DNA of 35,186 nucleotides from Halothiobacillus sp. (lineage in GTDB: Bacteria > Pseudomonadota > Gammaproteobacteria > JAAZVP01), in contig JAAZVP010000024.1 of assembly GCA_018623495.1 (NCBI GenBank), positions 1 through 35,186 of the forward strand, in the 5' to 3' direction. Under the pieces are notes generated by a model. The model was given only the letters and a program-made list of their open reading frames with translations. It was not told the DNA's origin and did no database searches. Position numbers and translations under genes: made by a program. Below, in pieces: positions 3,903 through 35,064 of the stretch (its first letter is position 1; every line of letters begins with the position of its first letter).

Positions 3903-4415
3903 ATGGACATGAAAACGAACCGCGGCTTCACACTCATCGAGTTGATGATCACGCTGGTGGTGGCCGCCATCCTGCTGACGGTGGCGATACCGAGCTTCTT
4001 CTCGGTGATCCAGAACAACCGGCTGACCACGGCGACCAACGCGTTCATCACGGCCATGACCCTTGCCCGGAGCGAGGCAGTCAAGCGCGGGGCCGACGTG
4101 ATGGTCGACACGATCGACAGCTCGGACGGCAGCAACGAATGGGGCCGCGGATTCAGGGTCGGCATCGACGGCGACGGCGATGGAGCCATCGCCGCCGGCG
4201 AGGCCCTGCAGACCTGGCCGGCTTTCGAGGGCGGAATAACCCTGGACAGCGATGGAGACATCGCCAGTTTCACCTACGATGCCAACGGTGTCGTCGATTC
4301 AGGGGACACCCTCGACCTGTGTGACAGCCAGCGATCCGGAGAAACGGGCCGGGAGATCACCATTGCAAACACCGGCCGGGTCTCGGTCACCGACCGCTCT
4401 CTCAACTGCAGCTGA
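3903..4415 (+). CDS. fimU: Type IV minor pilin FimU/FimT (set A)
   Basis: GspH/FimT-domain minor pilin, 170 residues. The leader MDMKTNRG is followed by FTLIELMITLVVAAILLTV with Glu5. The body has the family pattern FITAMTLARSEAVKRG, then EWGRGFRVGIDGDGDG and ITIANTGRVSV. AAGG seven bases upstream of the ATG at 3903 supports this start. It is the first gene of set A; pilV follows 4 bp after its stop. In Pseudomonas, FimU with PilV, PilW, PilX and PilE forms the complex that primes pilus assembly and carries PilY1 at the tip. The body is rich in Asp and Gly, which suggests a saline habitat. Confidence 0.9.
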   Translation: MDMKTNRGFTLIELMITLVVAAILLTVAIPSFFSVIQNNRLTTATNAFITAMTLARSEAVKRGADVMVDTIDSSDGSNEWGRGFRVGIDGDGDGAIAAGEALQTWPAFEGGITLDSDGDIASFTYDANGVVDSGDTLDLCDSQRSGETGREITIANTGRVSVTDRSLNCS

Positions 4416-4419
4416 GACG

Positions 4420-4989
4420 ATGATTGCCATGAACCTCAACCGACAATCGGGCGTGGGCATGATCGAGATCATGGTGACGACCCTGGTATTGGCCATCGGC
4501 CTGGTGGGCCTGGCCGCACTCAACCTCGAATCGGTCCGTGCCAATACCGACGCCATGAAACGCTCGCAGAACATCTGGGTAGTGGATTCCCTCGTCGAGC
4601 AGATGCACGCGAACCCGGCAGGCGCCCGCAATTACCTCAACGCGGACGACCCGCCGCTGCCGCCGTTCAAGGATGACGACGACACGCCCTGCGCTGAGAA
4701 ACCCACAGACCATTGCAGTGACGGCGCAGAACTCTCCGGCAACGACCTGGATGAATGCCAGCAATTCCGGGAGGCGCTATGGAATGCCGCCTGCGCCACC
4801 AGTCTGGGTGCACCGGCTTCGGGCATCGTCGGCATGCCGGGAGGGACGCTCGACGTCCAGTGCCAGATGGGTGGTGACGGGCAATGTGATCCCGGAGACC
4901 CCGTGCAGCTCCAGGCCCAATGGACCAACAAGGTGGACCTGGACGATGACGACTCCGTGAGCACCATCACCCAGGTGATCGTCCCATGA
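4420..4989 (+). CDS. pilV: Type IV minor pilin PilV (set A)
   Basis: 189 residues from the ATG at 4420; an in-frame ATG at 4429 would give the more usual 8-residue leader MNLNRQSG. The cleavage site and helix are G/VGMIEIMVTTLVLAIGLVGLAAL, with Glu5, and the PilV hallmark (GLVGLAAL then SLVEQMHANPAGARNY) follows. The C-terminal half has several cysteines (CAEKPTDHC, CQQ, AAC, VQCQMGGDGQC) able to form disulfides. Its stop overlaps the pilW start (ATGA), indicating translational coupling. A diverged second copy begins at 10835. Confidence 0.9.
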   Translation: MIAMNLNRQSGVGMIEIMVTTLVLAIGLVGLAALNLESVRANTDAMKRSQNIWVVDSLVEQMHANPAGARNYLNADDPPLPPFKDDDDTPCAEKPTDHCSDGAELSGNDLDECQQFREALWNAACATSLGAPASGIVGMPGGTLDVQCQMGGDGQCDPGDPVQLQAQWTNKVDLDDDDSVSTITQVIVP

Positions 4990-5765
4990 ACGCACAAAGG
5001 ACAAACCCCGACCGCCGACAACAGGGCCTGACGCTCATCGAGATGATGATCGCCATGGTCCTCGGGCTCGTGCTGGTGGCCGGCGCCATCCAGTTGCTGG
5101 TGGCCAACAAGCAGAGCTATTTCCTGCAGGACGCCATGTCCCGCCTCCAGGAAAACGGTCGCTTCGCCCTCCAACTGCTGACGCGGGACGTCCGCATGGC
5201 GGGATTCCACGATCCCCTGGTGGGGCCGACTCCTCCCGCCTTCTACACGGATGCGGCGATCACCGGTGCTGCCGCCGCGGACAACCTGGGCGGCGGGGTC
5301 GGCGATCGGCTCTCCGTGCTGCGCCTGAACGATGCCGGCATCGCCAGCGACTGCCTCGGCCAGAATGCCACCAGCAACCAGGCCATCAATGTCTACTGGG
5401 TGGGCGACACCGACGGTGACGGCAACACCGAACTGCTCTGCCGGGGAGGCGACCCCATCGCCGGAAACTGGCTGGGGCCGGCGCAACCCCTCGTCGACGA
5501 CGTGGAATCGCTTCAGGTGCAGTACGGTATCGACGGTGACGGCGATGGCAGCGTCGAGCAATACCAGACGGCCGACAACGTCGGCGACTGGGCCGAGGTA
5601 AGCACGGTGCGCCTGGCGCTCCTGCTCCGGACCAACCGCGACAATCTCCGCGAGGCCTCCAGCAAGACCTACACCCTGCTGGGACAGAACGTGTCCTCGC
5701 CGAATGACGGCCGCATCCGCAATGTCTTCGACACCACCGTGGTCCTACGGAACCGACTCCAATGA
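4986..5765 (+). CDS. pilW: Type IV minor pilin PilW (set A, short form)
   Basis: 259 residues. The leader ends RRQQG, followed by LTLIEMMIAMVLGLVLVAGAIQLL (Glu5 present) and the PilW signature SRLQENGRFALQLLTRDVRMAGF. The C-terminal domain starts near LVDDVESLQVQYGIDGDGDG and runs to VSTVRLALLLRT and VFDTTVVLRNRL. Compared with the 378-residue set-B copy it lacks about 110 residues in the middle, while both ends align. It overlaps pilV upstream and pilX downstream by 4 bp, so it belongs to a tightly coupled operon. Confidence 0.9.
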   Translation: MNAQRTNPDRRQQGLTLIEMMIAMVLGLVLVAGAIQLLVANKQSYFLQDAMSRLQENGRFALQLLTRDVRMAGFHDPLVGPTPPAFYTDAAITGAAAADNLGGGVGDRLSVLRLNDAGIASDCLGQNATSNQAINVYWVGDTDGDGNTELLCRGGDPIAGNWLGPAQPLVDDVESLQVQYGIDGDGDGSVEQYQTADNVGDWAEVSTVRLALLLRTNRDNLREASSKTYTLLGQNVSSPNDGRIRNVFDTTVVLRNRLQ

Positions 5766-6247
5766 ACGAACATCATCACAACGCTCGCTTCCCCGACAAC
5801 CAGCGCGGCGTAGCCCTGGCCGTGAGCCTGGTGCTCCTGCTCGTCCTCTCGGTGGTGGCGATCACCGCCTCCAACGTCTCCCGCATGCAGGAAAAGATCT
5901 CGGGCAACACTCAGCAGGAGCGGACGACGTTCCAGGCCGGGTTCTCCGCCCTCAACGCCAAGATCGAGGAATTCAAGACGGACCCGGAAGACCTCAAGGA
6001 CGCCATCGATGATGGCACCAAGAACCTTTCCCTGGACAGCGGCGCGAAGACCGCCGTCCTCGACAACGCGAACGTCAACCTGGACACCTTTCGGGCCACC
6101 CACATGGCCCAGGGGTGTCCGTACAAGTTCAGCTGCGACCACTTCGAAGGCCACTTCTTCGAACTCGACGCCCGAACCTCGATCTCCAACACCGGTGCCG
6201 TGACCGACCAGACCCAGGGCGCGCTCCGGGTGACGCCCAGGCCATGA
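5762..6247 (+). CDS. pilX: Type IV pilus assembly protein PilX (set A)
   Basis: 161 residues. A basic N-terminus ending QRG precedes a long hydrophobic helix, VALAVSLVLLLVLSVVAITA, then the PilX pattern SRMQEKISGN. Position 5 is not Glu; PilX and the type II secretion protein GspK characteristically lack it, consistent with a place at the very tip. The start overlaps the pilW stop (ATGA). The later body is less conserved and has two cysteines (GCPYKFSC). It is the PilX partner of the set-A PilV/PilW/PilY1 complex. Confidence 0.86.
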   Translation: MNEHHHNARFPDNQRGVALAVSLVLLLVLSVVAITASNVSRMQEKISGNTQQERTTFQAGFSALNAKIEEFKTDPEDLKDAIDDGTKNLSLDSGAKTAVLDNANVNLDTFRATHMAQGCPYKFSCDHFEGHFFELDARTSISNTGAVTDQTQGALRVTPRP

Positions 6248-6276
6248 ACCGAAGACCGTCAAAAGGAGTGACCGGC

Positions 6277-6606
6277 ATGAACCGCATCTTCACTCAGTCA
6301 TTGATCCCGCTGCTCGGCGCCTTGATGCTCATGGCCGTTCCCGCGGTCAGCGCCGAAATGCGACATCCCGAGGCGGCCATCGAAGCCTTCAGTCTCGAAG
6401 CCATCGAGGACTCCGGAGAAGGCCTGGTCATCGAGGTTCAGGCCTGCGAGGCATGTGATTATCGGCGTTTCGAGGTGCGTCCAGAGACGCGCTTCATTCA
6501 CCGGGGCAAGCCGACGAGCGCCGACGCACTGCCACGGAGAACGCCGGTCACGGGCACCGTCATCTACGACCGGGAAACGGAAAAGCTCACCAAGGTCATC
6601 TGGTGA
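6277..6606 (+). CDS. Small exported CxxC protein between pilX and pilY1, possibly PilY2-like
   Basis: 109 residues from the ATG at 6277, which has AAGGAG eight bases upstream. A signal peptide (hydrophobic LIPLLGALMLMAVPAVSA) precedes a mature part of about 80 residues with one CEAC motif near the middle and the ending KLTKVIW. I do not recognise a characterised family with certainty. Size, export signal, beta-rich look and operon place resemble PilY2, the small protein beside PilY1 in Pseudomonas; a clearer PilY2 candidate follows the second pilY1. The Cys pair could form a disulfide or bind metal. It may aid folding or export of PilY1, but that is inference. Confidence 0.7.
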   Translation: MNRIFTQSLIPLLGALMLMAVPAVSAEMRHPEAAIEAFSLEAIEDSGEGLVIEVQACEACDYRRFEVRPETRFIHRGKPTSADALPRRTPVTGTVIYDRETEKLTKVIW

Positions 6607-6667: not shown

Positions 6668-9600
6668 ATGGACAGCATCAACACCCAGCGCGTCGTTCTC
6701 TCGGCCTTCGTGGGCAGTCTCCTGTTCGCCCCCGTGGCCATGGGCGACGACACCGAGATCTACCTGCCCGACGAGAACATCTGGAAGCAGCCCAACGTGC
6801 TGTTCGTGATGGACACCTCGGGGAGCATGGCCTCGACGGTCCAGATCACGCCCGAGGACTACGACCCCACCCAGACCTACAGCGGCAACTGCAGCACGGA
6901 CCGCATCTACTGGAGGGACAGCTCCAACGGTGAACCGAGCTGCGGGACGGACAACTGGATCACCGAGGACGCGTTCAAGTGCAACAGCGCACAAGGCGCA
7001 CTGAACACTGCCGGCCACACCCAGCAAATCGATGCAGGGCAATTCAGAGAGCGGTGCAAGGAGCGGGTCTGCACCACGCGGTGGCGCGACCTGGATGACG
7101 ACGAGCACAGCGAACCCGTGGAATGCCGCAATGACAGCGGCACCCACGGCGAGAACGACGGCTCGGCCGACGTCTACGCCACCAACGATGACGCTTCGGG
7201 CTGGTCATCCGACAGCGACGACGAAATCTACTGGCCCAACCGGGACGACTACAGCTTTTTCACCGGGAATTACCTCAACTACCTCGAAAGCGTGGGCACT
7301 GTCGAAAGGACCCGCCTGGAAGTCGTCCAGCAGATCGCCAGCGATCTCGTCGACAGCATGACCGGGATCAATATCGGGCTGATGCGCTTCGACGTGGACG
7401 AAGGCTATTACGATGGCTACAACGGTGGCTTCGTCGACGTGGCCGTCGATGACATCGAATCGGTTCGCTCCGAGTTCAAAACGGTCCTGAACAGCTACTC
7501 GGCCTACGGCAACACGCCCTTGAGCGAGACCTACTGGGAGGCCGCCCGCTATTTCCGGGGTGAAGGCCTGGACTTCGGCGATTCCAGCGAGCCACGTGAA
7601 AGCACGAGCGACTCCTACAGTGGCGGCAAATACATCTCGCCCATCCAGGACCCCTGCCAGAATAACTTCATCATCCTGTTCACCGACGGCCTGCCGACGG
7701 CCGACAAGGAGACGGACAACAGTTATCGGGTCCCCGACCTGATCGGCGGCAGCTGTTCATACACGGGCGACGCTGATGGCGACGGCGCCTGCATGGTGGA
7801 CCTCGCCGAGTTCCTCTACGAAGAGGACCAGTTCAGCGACGCCGACTTCTCGCGGGACCTCAGCGCCTACGACGAGAGCACCCAGAAGATCGTCACCTAC
7901 ACCGTCGGCTTCCAGCTCGATGCCGGCATCCTGAGCGAGACCGCCAACAAGGGCGGCGGCAAGTACTACACCGCCGACACCTACGACGAACTGAAACAGG
8001 CACTCACCGAGATCTTCGTCGAGATCAAGGACTCCGCGGCCATATTCACCTCCCCGGGCGTGGCGGTGGACAACTTCAACCGGCTGCAGCACCGCAACCA
8101 GCTCTACTACGCGCTGTTCAAGCCGGCCTCCACCGCTAGTTGGCCGGGCAACTTCAAGCGCTACGAGCTGGCCTACAACACGACCTCGGAGACCTTCGAG
8201 ATCGTCGACGTGAACGACGACGCGGCGATCGATCCCCAGACCGGCTTCTTCCGCCAGGGCGCGCAGAGCCACTGGAGCGACGAGGCCGACGGCAACTACG
8301 TCGAAAAGGGCGGGGCCGCCAACGAGCTGACGCTTTCCCGCAACATCTACACCTATACCGGCTCGAAAGACAGCCTTACCGACAGCAGCAATGAGCTTTC
8401 CGAGACCAACTCGGCCATCACCAAGGCCATGCTGGGCATTCCCTCCGCCACCGACGCCGAGCGGGAGAAGGTCCTCGAGTGGGCACGCGGCGTGGACGTG
8501 AACGACATCGACGACGACGGTTCGAGCACCGATGCCTGCACCCGGCTGGGTGACCCCCTCCACGGCGAACCCATCCTGGTGACCTACGGCGGCACCGAGG
8601 ACTCGCCGGACATCACCATGTTCAGTATCACCAACGACGGCTATCTCCACGCCTTCGACCCCGACGACGGCAGCGAAGAATTCGCCTTCGTCCCGCAGGA
8701 CCTGCTGATCAACCTGCCGACACTGATGGAGAACCCCGAGGGCAGCGGCAAGGTCTACGGCCTGGACGGGCCGCTGGAGTTCTACCGCCAGGAATCCTCC
8801 GACGACGGGATCGAGATCGAGGCCGACGAAGGGGACAAGGTATATGTCTTCGCCGGCATGCGCCGCGGTGGCCGCAACTACTATGGCCTGGACGTGACCG
8901 ACCGTGACGCCCCGGAACGCCTTTGGGCCATCAAGGGCGGCAGCGGCGACTTCGCCGAGCTGGGCGAAACCTGGTCCGCCCCCAGGGTCGCCAGGATGCG
9001 CTGGAACGACGGCAGCCTGAAGACCGTGCTCATCTTCGGCGGCGGCTACGACGACGCCCAGGATGCCGAGGGGGCGCCGGTTGCGGACAGCCAGGGTCGT
9101 GCGATTTACATCGTCGACATGGAGACGGGCAGTCGCCTGTGGTGGGCCGGGCCTTCCGGCTCCGGGGCCGACCTGGAACTCGCGAGCCTCACGAACTCCA
9201 TCCCCGGGGACGTGATGCCCGCCGATATCAATGCTGACGGCCTCGTGGACATCATCTTTGCCTCCGACACGGCCGGCCAGGTATTCCGCATGGACGTCGC
9301 CTACCAGGACACGGACAACGACCAGACCGTGGACACGCTGGACACCATTACCGGCGGCCGCATCGCCAATCTCGGCGGCGACGATGCCGATGACAACCGT
9401 CGCTTCTACAACACCCCCGACGTGACCGTGATGAAGGACCCCAGCGGGGACTACATCGCCATCACCATCGGCTCCGGTCTGCGGGCCCATCCGCTCAACA
9501 CCACCATCAACGACCGCTTCTACGTCCTCGAGGACCATGCCGTCTACGGCCCGCCCAAGGATGACGACGGCAACGTCAGCTACACCACCGTGACCGAGAG

Positions 9601-30757: not shown

Positions 30758-31021
30758 TCAGTGGTCCGCGGTACGCTCCGCGTCCCTGCCTTCCAGCTCG
30801 GCCACCCGCTTTTCCAGGGCCTCGAGCCGCTCGCGGGTGCGCCTGAGCACCGCTGCCTGGACGTCGAATTCCTCGCGGGTGACCAGGTCCATCCGCTGAA
30901 AGGCGTTCTGCAGGCTGATCTGGACCTGGCGGTCGATGTCCTGCTTGAGTTCCTGCATGCCCTCGGGCAGCGCCTCGCTGATGCGCCGGGCCATGTCGTC
31001 GAGTACCTGGGGCTTGATCAT
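30758..31021 (-). CDS. ubiK: Ubiquinone biosynthesis accessory factor UbiK (BMFP domain)
   Basis: 87 residues. An amphipathic N-terminal half (VLDDMARRISEALPEGMQELKQDIDRQVQ) is followed by the conserved MDLVTREEFDVQAAVL and a C-terminal coiled coil (RTRERLEALEKRVAELEGRD). UbiK assists UbiJ in organising the soluble ubiquinone-synthesis complex under aerobic conditions. The ATG at 31021 has GGAAGGA just upstream. It is followed by comM and is divergent from the nitrogen operon, a common gammaproteobacterial arrangement. Confidence 0.93.
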   Translation of the reverse strand: MIKPQVLDDMARRISEALPEGMQELKQDIDRQVQISLQNAFQRMDLVTREEFDVQAAVLRRTRERLEALEKRVAELEGRDAERTADH

Positions 31022-31081
31022 CGTCCTTCCTCGCTCGGTTTCCCGTTGCCCCGAGTGTATCGGATTTTGCCGCAGACCCGC

Positions 31082-31098
31082 TGCACCACCACGGCGCA
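31082..31098 (+). promoter_or_regulatory. NtrC-like binding site 1 (porin-glnK-amtB operon)
   Basis: TGCACC-N5-GGCGCA, one mismatch from the palindromic NtrC consensus TGCACC-N5-GGTGCA. It is centred near -143 relative to the predicted sigma-54 start. Its distance to site 2 is 32 bp, about three helical turns. Confidence 0.7.
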
Positions 31099-31114
31099 CC
31101 ACCGTGGACGCCAG

Positions 31115-31129
31115 GCACCAACACGGCGC
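31115..31129 (+). promoter_or_regulatory. NtrC-like binding site 2 (porin-glnK-amtB operon)
   Basis: GCACC-N5-GGCGC, the same one-base deviation as site 1, centred near -111. With site 1 it mimics the paired enhancer of enterobacterial glnA. Confidence 0.65.
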
Positions 31130-31206
31130 GGCACGCCCAGCCCCCGGCCCACCACGGGCCCCTCGAAAAAACCCTATCCCGTTGTTTTAGCGACCATTTT
31201 CCAGAA

Positions 31207-31222
31207 TGGCACGGAGCCTGCA
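31207..31222 (+). promoter_or_regulatory. Sigma-54 promoter of the porin-glnK-amtB operon
   Basis: TGGCACGGAGCCTGCA fits the -24/-12 consensus TGGCACG-N4-TTGCA with a single mismatch and correct GG-to-GC spacing. Transcription should begin near 31233, about 30 bp before the porin ATG. Confidence 0.88.
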
Positions 31223-31264
31223 ATCAGGGCGGCGAACCCCATCGCTCATTCACGGAGCACGACC

Positions 31265-32282
<1,018 letters not shown>

Positions 32283-32306
32283 GCCGCAGCACAAAGAGGT
32301 AACCCC

Positions 32307-33554
32307 ATGGAAAGCCCAATCATTCAACTGTCCTATGCACTGGATACCTTCTATTTCCTGGTATCCGGCGCCCTGGTGATGTGGATGGCCGCCGGCTTCA
32401 CGATGCTCGAATCGGGGCTGGTGCGGTCCAAGAACACCACCGAGATACTTACCAAGAACGTCGCCCTCTACGCGATCGCCTGCGTGATGTACATGTTCGT
32501 CGGCTACAACATCATGTACGGCGGCTCCGACAGCGGCCTGATCCCGTCCGTCAGCTTCCTGCTGGGCGGTGACAACAGCGTCGCGGACGTCGTGGGCAGC
32601 GGCGGGGACATCTACTACTCCAACCTGTCCGACTTCTTCTTCCAGGTCGTGTTCGTGGCCACCGCCATGTCCGTGGTCTCCGGCGCGGTCGCCGAGCGGA
32701 TGAAGCTGTGGGCCTTCCTGGTCTTCGCCGTGGTCCTCACCGGCTTCATCTACCCCGTCCAGGGCTTCTGGAAGTGGGGCGGCGGCTTCCTCGACCAGAT
32801 GGGCTTCCAGGACTTCGCCGGCTCCGGCGTGGTGCACATGACCGGTGCCGCCGCGGCCCTGGCCGGTGTCCTGCTGCTCGGCGCACGCAAGGGCAAGTAC
32901 GGCCCCAACGGCGAGGTGCACGCCATCCCGGGTGCCAACATGCCGCTCGCCGCACTGGGCATGTTCATCCTCTGGCTCGGCTGGTTCGGCTTCAACGGCG
33001 GCTCGGAGCTGATGATCTCCAACATCGACGAGGCCAACGCCGTGGCCAAGGTGTTCGTCAACACCAACATGGCGGCCGCCGGTGGCCTGATCGCCGCGCT
33101 GATCACCGCCAAGCTGATGTTCGGCAAGGCCGACCTGACCATGACCATCAACGGCGCGCTCGCGGGCCTGGTGGCCATCACCGCCGAGCCCCTGGCCCCC
33201 TCCCCCGGCTGGGCCACCCTGATCGGTGCCGTGGGCGGCGTGATCGTGGTCCTCTCCGTGATCGGCCTGGACAAGCTCCGGATCGACGATCCCGTGGGCG
33301 CCATCTCCGTGCACGGCGTGGTCGGCATCTGGGGCCTGCTGGCCGTCCCGTTCAACAACCCCGACGCCGGCTTCGTCACCCAGGTCATCGGTGCGATCGT
33401 GATCTTCGCCTGGGTCTTCATCGCCTCCTTCATCGTCTGGATGATCCTCAAGAAGACCATGGGCATCCGGGTCTCCGAGGAAGACGAGTACGAGGGCGTG
33501 GACTTGGTGGAGTGCGGCATGGAGGCCTACCCCGAGTTCGGCTCGCAGAAGTAA
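32307..33554 (+). CDS. amtB: Ammonium transporter (glnK-linked AmtB)
   Basis: 415 residues with 11 membrane segments; an ammonium channel of the inner membrane. The twin-histidine pore motifs are in GSGVVHMTGAAAAL and ISVHGVVGIWGLLA. Conserved segments include AAGFTMLESGLVRSKNT, VVSGAVAERMK and LGWFGFNGGSEL. The cytoplasmic tail (GIRVSEEDEYEGVDLVECG) matches the GlnK-interacting tail of the family. There is no long signal peptide. An AAAGAGG site precedes the ATG at 32307. It is the last gene of the porin-glnK-amtB operon, with a terminator downstream. Confidence 0.97.
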   Translation: MESPIIQLSYALDTFYFLVSGALVMWMAAGFTMLESGLVRSKNTTEILTKNVALYAIACVMYMFVGYNIMYGGSDSGLIPSVSFLLGGDNSVADVVGSGGDIYYSNLSDFFFQVVFVATAMSVVSGAVAERMKLWAFLVFAVVLTGFIYPVQGFWKWGGGFLDQMGFQDFAGSGVVHMTGAAAALAGVLLLGARKGKYGPNGEVHAIPGANMPLAALGMFILWLGWFGFNGGSELMISNIDEANAVAKVFVNTNMAAAGGLIAALITAKLMFGKADLTMTINGALAGLVAITAEPLAPSPGWATLIGAVGGVIVVLSVIGLDKLRIDDPVGAISVHGVVGIWGLLAVPFNNPDAGFVTQVIGAIVIFAWVFIASFIVWMILKKTMGIRVSEEDEYEGVDLVECGMEAYPEFGSQK

Positions 33555-33579
33555 CCCGAGCGTCATCTCCTGGAAGGCA

Positions 33580-33601
33580 AGCGGGCTCCGGCCCGCTTTT
33601 T
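33580..33601 (+). terminator. Rho-independent terminator after amtB
   Basis: A 7-bp stem, AGCGGGC (33580-33586) with GCCCGCT (33591-33597), and loop TCCG are followed by T residues. It separates the glnK-amtB unit from the second amt gene. Confidence 0.92.
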
Positions 33602-33714
33602 CCGTCATGGGGTCGCGCAAGGGCAAGAAACGCCCCCCTGTGGCCGCTCCCCCCGCCCGCTCCCGCGCCGGTCAGCTCCCCTCCTCGCAACACGCGATCC
33701 CCGGCCCCGGCAAC

Positions 33715-33729
33715 GCCCCATCCTGGTGC
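33715..33729 (+). promoter_or_regulatory. NtrC-like binding site 1 (second amt gene)
   Basis: GCCCC-N5-GGTGC, one mismatch to the consensus core GCACC-N5-GGTGC, centred near -109 relative to the predicted start and 31 bp from site 2. Confidence 0.55.
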
Positions 33730-33744
33730 CCGCCCGCCGGGCCC

Positions 33745-33761
33745 TGCACCGCATCCGTGCA
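33745..33761 (+). promoter_or_regulatory. NtrC-like binding site 2 (second amt gene)
   Basis: TGCACC-N5-CGTGCA, a single mismatch to TGCACC-N5-GGTGCA, centred near -78 relative to the predicted start. Confidence 0.65.
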
Positions 33762-33804
33762 CGACCGGACCCGGAATGGGCGGATCCACCGCCCGAACAC
33801 CGCC

Positions 33805-33820
33805 TGGCCCGCATCCTGCA
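33805..33820 (+). promoter_or_regulatory. Sigma-54 promoter of the second amt gene
   Basis: TGGCCCGCATCCTGCA matches TGGCACG-N4-TTGCA with two mismatches and the correct -24/-12 spacing. Transcription should begin near 33831, about 22 bp before the ATG. Confidence 0.75.
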
Positions 33821-33852
33821 TCGGCATGCACCAAATCGTTTCGGGAGACCCC

Positions 33853-35064
33853 ATGGACGCTTTCCAGAATGGTGCAAACACCTTCTTTCTCTTGATCGGT
33901 GCCGCCATGGTGCTGGCCATGCACGCCGGTTTCGCCTTTCTCGAGGTGGGCACGGTACGCGAGAAGAACCAGGTCAACGCCCTGGTCAAGATCATCGGCG
34001 ACTTCGCCGTGGCCACCATCGCCTACTTCTTCATCGGCTACACGGTGGCCTACGGTATGGACTTCTTCGCCGCGGCAAGCGAACTCAACGCGGGCAATGG
34101 CTATGAGCTGGTGAAGTTCTTCTTCCTGCTCACCTTCGCCGCGGCGATCCCCGCCATCGTCTCCGGCGGCGTGGCCGAGCGGGCCAAGTTCTACCCCCTG
34201 CTGGCGGCCACCTTCGTGATCGTCGCCTTCGTCTACCCGTTCTACGAGGGCATCGTCTGGAACGGCCGGCTGGGCCTGCAGGGCTGGCTGGAGCGGACCT
34301 TCGGCGCGGGCTTCCACGACTTCGCCGGCTCCATGGTGGTGCACGGCATGGGCGGCTGGATCGCCCTGGCAGCCGTGGTGCTGCTGGGCGCCCGGCGTGG
34401 CCGCTACGGCAAGGCGGGCGGCATGTCGGCCCACCCGCCCTCGAGCATCCCCTTCCTCGCCCTGGGCGCCTGGATCCTGACCGTGGGCTGGTTCGGCTTC
34501 AACGTGATGTCGGCGCAATCGGTAGAGGCGGTTTCCGGCCTGGTGGCGATCAACTCGCTGATGGCCATGGTGGGCGGGGTGCTGGCCGCGCTGGTGGCCG
34601 GCCGCAACGACCCGGGCTTCATCCACAACGGCCCGCTGGCCGGGCTGGTGGCGGTCTGCGCGGGCTCGGACGTGATGCACCCCCTGGGGGCACTGGCCAC
34701 CGGCGCGGTGGCCGGGGCCATCTTCGTCTGGACCTTCATCCTCACCCAGAACCGCTGGAAGATCGACGACGTGCTGGGCGTATGGCCGCTGCACGGCATC
34801 TGCGGCGCCTGGGGGGCGCTGGCCGCCGGCCTCTTCGGCCTCGAGGCCCTGGGCGGGCTGGGCGGGGTGAACCTGCTGGTCCAGCTGATCGGCACCGTGG
34901 CCGGCATCGCCATCGCCCTGCTCGGCGGCTTCGCCGTCTACGGCATCCTCGCGCGCACCGTGGGTATCCGGCTGGACGAGGAGCAGGAGTACGAGGGCGC
35001 CGACCTGGCGATCCACCGCATCAGCGCCACGCCCAAGACCGGCAGCGAGGCGGGTATGTTCTAA
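33853..35064 (+). CDS. amt: Second ammonium transporter (Amt paralogue)
   Basis: 403 residues with 11 predicted membrane segments. The twin histidines lie in SMVVHGMGGWIAL and WPLHGICGAWGAL. Other family motifs are AMHAGFAFLEVGTVREKNQVNAL, VSGGVAERAKF and VGWFGFNVMS. It differs clearly from the first AmtB, so this is an old duplication or a separate subtype, not a recent copy. The ATG at 33853 lies after a GGGAG site; the frame is open upstream but that stretch contains the regulatory sites. The C-terminal tail (GIRLDEEQEYEGADLAIHR) resembles the PII-binding tail of the first copy, so GlnK may control it too. An ABC ATPase gene begins 7 bp downstream. Confidence 0.96.
   Translation: MDAFQNGANTFFLLIGAAMVLAMHAGFAFLEVGTVREKNQVNALVKIIGDFAVATIAYFFIGYTVAYGMDFFAAASELNAGNGYELVKFFFLLTFAAAIPAIVSGGVAERAKFYPLLAATFVIVAFVYPFYEGIVWNGRLGLQGWLERTFGAGFHDFAGSMVVHGMGGWIALAAVVLLGARRGRYGKAGGMSAHPPSSIPFLALGAWILTVGWFGFNVMSAQSVEAVSGLVAINSLMAMVGGVLAALVAGRNDPGFIHNGPLAGLVAVCAGSDVMHPLGALATGAVAGAIFVWTFILTQNRWKIDDVLGVWPLHGICGAWGALAAGLFGLEALGGLGGVNLLVQLIGTVAGIAIALLGGFAVYGILARTVGIRLDEEQEYEGADLAIHRISATPKTGSEAGMF

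Follow-up and report, generated by a model that had tools for sequence, protein, structure and literature searches.

A TorF-Type Porin at the Head of a glnK-amtB Operon

The stretch of DNA analyzed here, referred to as the window, comprises 35,186 nucleotides of a draft genome of Halothiobacillus sp. (contig JAAZVP010000024.1, positions 1 to 35,186 of the forward strand). It contains a gene for a TorF-type outer-membrane porin, followed on the same strand by genes for a P-II nitrogen regulator and an ammonium transporter. The porin gene diverges from ubiK, and the 243-bp gap between the two (ubiK, 30758-31021, minus strand; porin start, 31265) carries the motifs of a putative NtrC/sigma-54 promoter. 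The features are as follows.

31082-31098, plus strand: NtrC-like site 1, upstream activator site, TGCACCACCACGGCGCA, centre at -143
31114-31130, plus strand: NtrC-like site 2, GGCACCAACACGGCGCG, centre at -111, 32 bp after site 1
31207-31222, plus strand: sigma-54 -24/-12 box, TGGCACGGAGCCTGCA, 1 mismatch
31265-31906, plus strand: TorF-family (Gcw_chp) outer-membrane porin, 213 aa, 12-stranded barrel model (TIGR02001, PF09694)
31944-32282, plus strand: P-II nitrogen regulator, GlnK type (NF007946, 183.9 bits, cut-off 181)
32307-33554, plus strand: ammonium transporter, marine subtype, amtB (TIGR03644, 693 bits, cut-off 514)
30758-31021, minus strand: ubiK (BMFP; PF04380, 100.3 bits), divergent; this left-hand neighbour is conserved

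The assignment of the porin to the TorF type, proposed in a preliminary description of this DNA, is confirmed by its profile scores, which lie above the curated cut-offs for both TIGR02001 (82.6 bits, cut-off 47.15) and PF09694 (60.3 bits, cut-off 24). The best stretches matched by the TorF profiles end at residues 142-151 of the 213-residue protein. The porin is the sole PF09694 match in the draft genome, which is 99% complete.

Compared with the consensus TGCACC-N5-GGTGCA, site 1 has one mismatch, and site 2 has three among the 12 fixed bases of this 17-mer. Over the 15-base core GCACC-N5-GGTGC each site departs once, by the identical T-to-C change; the core of site 2 reads GCACC-AACAC-GGCGC, with one mismatch among ten fixed bases. 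The identical one-base deviation that the preliminary description had ascribed to both sites thus holds for the core and fails for the 17-base consensus. The two sites start 32 bp apart. The sigma-54 box keeps its GG/GC pair at the correct spacing and predicts a transcript start near 31233, which places the centres of the two sites at -143 and -111, where the same description had put them. That is, a pair of upstream NtrC-like sites lies within the approximately 100-150 bp before the start, the second of them weak over 17 bases.

The arrangement resembles that of the E. coli promoter glnAp2, where NtrC sites near -140 and -108, separated by about 32 bp, accompany a sigma-54 box. Spacing, positions, and box are alike. 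The differences are that glnAp2 drives glnA rather than a porin gene, and that both sites in the window deviate, the second being weak.

Chance Tests and Genome-Wide Controls

The gap was subjected to 20,000 dinucleotide shuffles. At least one NtrC core arose in 431 of these, two cores in 6, and a sigma-54 box in 24; two cores together with the box arose in none. A composite pattern, defined as an NtrC core followed after 92-122 bp by TGGCAC-N6-TGC, has a single occurrence in the draft genome (2.46 Mb); the reversed-pattern control gave none. The exact sequence TGCACCN5GGYGCA is found at three places in this genome, namely before glnA, before ntrB, and at site 1 (glnA and ntrB having been assigned by eye from translations). 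The glnA palindrome is followed 57 bp downstream by a sigma-54 box. Both NtrC (734.8 bits, cut-off 558.6) and RpoN are encoded in the genome. No sigma-70-like promoter was found in the region 30900-34000.

Conservation of the Operon and of Its Promoter

A porin match was obtained in 35 of 94 class-level relatives, counting the window's own genome, and in 16 of the 29 non-window porin loci that were fetched, a P-II gene of the same orientation follows the porin within 400 bp. A scan of named genomes used seven porins as query and examined the best 80 of at least 554 loci. P-II is found within 400 bp of the porin in 45 of these 80; divergent ubiK is present in 42 of the 45, and yifB in addition to ubiK in 35. 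The P-II-linked loci include Azoarcus, Thauera, Methylobacillus, Methylotenera, and Sedimenticola, the TorF-PII-Amt order is present in Methylophilaceae, and the ubiK/yifB synteny spans beta- and gamma-proteobacteria.

Several loci show variants of this arrangement. In L177 (genome G002), two adjacent TorF genes (4756-5478 and 5874-6584) precede P-II and Amt. In L165 (genome G086), TorF lies beyond yifB while P-II-Amt is still beside ubiK (6677-7294; 3943-4278), as if the porin had been relocated out of the operon. A TorF-ubiK-yifB block also occurs in L073, a record labelled as a Klebsiella pneumoniae metagenome-assembled genome; a quick tree places this sequence among those of Thiotrichaceae and uncultured gammaproteobacteria, and the label is probably wrong.

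To assess the promoter, 450 bp were scanned for each of 59 P-II-linked porins (the window included, three duplicates dropped). The strict joint motif was defined as a sigma-54 box with at most two mismatches plus an NtrC core with at most one, centred between -200 and -60; the loose motif allows two mismatches in the core. The strict motif is present in 33 of the 59, with 0 in 40 rounds of shuffling, and the loose motif in 40 (shuffle mean 0.1). Porins linked to Amt only carry the joint motif in 3 of 6 cases. For TorF genes linked to neither, the counts are 5 of 41 (strict) and 9 of 41 (loose), one of 42 having too little upstream DNA. Local sequence, the glnA and ntrB controls of this genome, and the relatives all support the earlier proposal that the porin heads a glnK-amtB operon of probable NtrC/sigma-54 type.

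The preliminary description had also raised the question of whether the porin always follows this promoter in relatives. It does not. From 72 genomes with a P-II match, 29 non-self loci were fetched, and the porin directly precedes P-II in only 9 of them. The loose joint motif is found before P-II in 8 of these 9, and in 14 of the 20 loci that lack the porin. Porin-less P-II operons keep the ubiK border and the same kind of promoter. This survey indicates that the enhancer belongs to glnK-amtB, and that the porin shares it in some lineages.

Urea-Linked TorF Genes

Three of the unlinked TorF genes (L166, L169, and L171) occur together with genes for urease and/or UrtABC; gene names at these loci were assigned first by eye from translations, and the rest by similarity to these. 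Six urea-type TorF proteins were used as queries against 370 class genomes and matched in 67, and 20 mostly top-scoring loci were fetched with wider flanks. Thirteen lie in urease/Urt clusters, three before P-II-Amt, and four near neither; among the last, L227 and L228 are genomes that had previously been sampled as L039 and L045. The loose joint motif is present in 9 of the 13 urea loci, with the start taken from the match and not from an annotated ATG. In the quick tree, which has 119 rows, a single branch of 25 rows, with a Shimodaira-Hasegawa-like approximate likelihood ratio test value of 100, holds 15 of the 16 that are urea-linked; the remaining one, L041, is found elsewhere. Ammonium-linked rows surround this branch. 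The porin of the window is placed together with L024, L025, and L026.

The positions of the NtrC-like sites follow the turn of the helix. The best centres in 43 linked loci show a period of about 10.9-11 bp (R 0.66), and 0 of 5000 jittered sets score as high. When only the 25 unique positions are used, a test that handles shared ancestry only in part, 0 of 5000 random sets do so. For all sites with at most one mismatch (50 positions), R is 0.53, reached by 3 of 5000 random unique-position sets. The phase derived from the porin-PII set holds in 8 of 9 urea-linked sites and in 11 of 14 sites of porin-less P-II operons, half being expected in each case. Of the window's own two sites, one falls inside the half-turn band and one just outside.

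Structural Model of the Porin

AlphaFold2 was applied to 62 porins. The model of the window porin has 12 strands and a mean predicted local distance difference test score (pLDDT) of 88; the protein is thus predicted to be a 12-stranded outer-membrane beta-barrel. The nearest solved folds are the 12-strand porins KdgM, VhGalP, and NanC (Z 15.5-16.8, root-mean-square deviation 2.2-2.8), which are alike in fold and share only about 6-14% identity with the window porin. NanC takes acidic sugars. The titles of the KdgM and VhGalP structures likewise point to acidic sugars, whereas the lumen of the window porin is predicted to be acidic. At E ≤ 0.001 the porin matched PF09694 only, no match to PF06178 (KdgM family) was found in the genome, and the control on KdgM charge found no KdgM among the 94 relatives. 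Searching by sequence identified no solved structure for the porin, the matches being one at E 0.48 and a weak one, to an OprD-type porin, at E 0.0051.

The facing of residues was derived from strand parity in the sequence rather than from coordinates. On this basis, inward positions in the 62 porins average 10.5 Asp/Glu against 2.1 Lys/Arg, with an acidic excess in 62 of 62. No variation is seen at Glu78, Asp80, or Glu114, and Asp57 is 98% conserved; all four are assigned as inward-facing. Acidic residues number 36 in the mature window porin, against 2 basic ones. We considered lumen acidity as a signature of ammonium transport and rejected it, as urea-linked members are equally acidic. Because the two groups are alike in this respect, the acidity is consistent with cations and hydrogen-bond donors of any kind.

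Tandem double-TorF proteins of 462-489 aa, each in one open frame, occur in six loci:

L085, 27-1496
L092, 3501-4889
L096, 3501-4907
L103, 3489-4907
L104, 2676-4070
L126, 890-2353

Each chain could form a pair of barrels or a single barrel of larger size; the AlphaFold model, which has 24 strands, is too weak (pLDDT 57) to distinguish between them.

Neighbouring Genes

Downstream of amtB, the window contains the following additional features, all on the plus strand.

33579-33601, plus strand: terminator-like GC-rich hairpin with T run, 3' of amtB
33745-33761, plus strand: NtrC-like site before the second amt, TGCACCGCATCCGTGCA, 1 mismatch, centre at -78
33805-33820, plus strand: sigma-54-like box before the second amt, TGGCCCGCATCCTGCA, 2 mismatches, GG/GC kept
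33853-35064, plus strand: second ammonium transporter family gene (PF00909, 294.9 bits)

The fold of 33570-33610, which includes the hairpin, has an energy of -21.2 kcal/mol (z -3.2); a scan for consensus terminators did not list the hairpin. The second amt gene has a predicted transcript start at 33831 and, judging from its own promoter motifs, is apparently a separate transcription unit. The spacing of its NtrC-like site is close to that seen before glnA in this genome. Both motifs had been omitted from the preliminary description.

The GlnK-type P-II gene is the single PF00543 match in the draft, whereas relatives with a P-II match mostly have two. Because this sole P-II gene is located in an NtrC-type operon, a separate constitutive GlnB may be absent; a gap in the draft could also account for this.

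Known Systems

The promoter and operon type are already known in relatives, and the window is a further member. In Herbaspirillum seropedicae, the nlmAglnKamtB operon is NtrC-dependent and induced under nitrogen limitation, with amtB::lacZ 21-fold higher, according to passages of the published report (PMC3023670). The likeness lies in the operon position of nlmA, the dependence on NtrC, and the induction by nitrogen limitation. As to the difference, the same passages place NlmA in the periplasm by proposal and do not term it a porin (PMC3023670). One frame of a published primer from close to the border of nlmA and glnK gives SKTFD, which resembles TorF C-termini; this is suggestive only. From its operon position, NlmA may be a TorF protein. 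A second case is NB46_00251 of an OM43 methylotroph, which is labelled hypothetical and shares a putative operon with PII and amt; excerpts of that study give its increase under nutrient depletion as about 1,900-fold, the largest transcript change reported there (PMC5120137). Here too a conserved gene stands ahead of PII-Amt; the difference is that it was left hypothetical (PMC5120137). Its position, and the gene order in other Methylophilaceae, suggest that this gene also encodes a TorF protein.

FmdC of Methylophilus methylotrophus is presumably a larger porin of another family than TorF. It provides a precedent for nitrogen porins, being cited in one report as an outer-membrane porin tied to the uptake of urea and short-chain amides (PMC5877670). 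For TorF itself, no assignment of a role in nitrogen uptake was found in the excerpts of open-licence PMC text that were searched.

Discussion

To determine whether the porin is part of a nitrogen-switched uptake system, three other explanations have to be weighed. That the operon is driven from elsewhere, the motif having arisen by chance, is extremely improbable. Loose NtrC-like matches with at most three mismatches are indeed frequent in this GC-rich window (43, against 26.8 expected), but the shuffles, the unique composite pattern, the joint motif in relatives, and the helical phase led us to reject this idea, and it also speaks against it that no sigma-70-like promoter was found in 30900-34000. 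It is unlikely, too, that the promoter is that of glnK-amtB alone and the porin an inserted passenger, i.e., a general small porin with no role in nitrogen metabolism. The porin-less P-II operons with the same promoter and ubiK border favor this view, and the porin is absent from most of the relatives sampled. Against this, the porin leads the operon in many families and has an independent tie to urea uptake clusters with NtrC-type promoters; an association with a second nitrogen system is not expected of a pure passenger. A less remote, yet still doubtful, alternative is that the porin takes in a different small nitrogen compound, such as urea, amides, amines, or TMAO (trimethylamine N-oxide)-like compounds, and serves general scavenging rather than acting as a partner of AmtB. 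The urea clade of TorF and the identical acidic-aromatic lumen ring in both clades favor this possibility, and torF of Shewanella appears, in part of one report, as the outer membrane porin of a TMAO reductase system (PMC5955497). However, in this genome P-II and AmtB come immediately after the single TorF gene, and in the quick tree ammonium-linked members surround the urea clade.

Several observations also weigh against the reading that we favor, that is, an NtrC/sigma-54-switched operon with a nitrogen-permeable porin. Site 2 is clearly weaker than site 1 on the full 17-base consensus, and among the porin-PII operons the strict joint motif is missing in 26 of 59, and the loose one in 19. 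The porin-less loci with the same promoter imply that this regulon can do without the porin. The equal acidity of urea-linked and ammonium-linked lumens does not single out ammonium, and the named family member, TorF of Shewanella, belongs, as that report lists it, to TMAO respiration and not to assimilation.

On balance, we regard control of the porin-glnK-amtB operon by NtrC and sigma-54 as highly probable from its sequence and conservation. That the porin is a channel for nitrogen uptake is a less secure claim, which we nonetheless favor; it is strengthened by the association with urease and urea transporters and by the published induction of genes at the same operon position. The explanation as a whole appears likely.

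The mechanism that we propose builds on the motifs, the operon order, their conservation and helical phasing, the barrel model, and the acidic lumen; what we infer is that NtrC binds, that the operon is induced in this organism, that the porin is a channel, and which substrate it takes. Under nitrogen limitation, phosphorylated NtrC would bind the two upstream sites and loop to the sigma-54 polymerase at the -24/-12 box. The porin-glnK-amtB operon would thereby be switched on, and the second amt gene downstream would respond through a similar promoter of its own. The TorF barrel, with its acidic lumen, would raise the permeability of the outer membrane to small nitrogen compounds, the substrate probably being ammonium here and urea in the sister operons. 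With this higher permeability, AmtB in the inner membrane would be supplied when substrate is scarce, while P-II would gate AmtB and report nitrogen status.

The newer and more tentative part of this proposal concerns TorF proteins as putative nitrogen-uptake channels common to ammonium and urea systems; gene context and regulation support it well. For the family, we lean slightly toward the view that TorF/Gcw_chp proteins are dedicated outer-membrane channels for small nitrogen compounds, paired with AmtB-GlnK or with urease/UrtABC and mostly controlled by NtrC/sigma-54. With them, a nitrogen-switched uptake system of three layers would be complete, and in some lineages two TorF barrels would be fused in one chain. 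The passage of scarce ammonium or urea across the outer membrane is usually credited to general porins. If the proposal is true, dedicated outer-membrane uptake of nitrogen becomes directly testable, and a family still named 'putative porin' would gain a function. It could also account for the 'hypothetical' gene with the strongest induction in a nutrient-starved marine methylotroph, as excerpts of that study describe it (PMC5120137).
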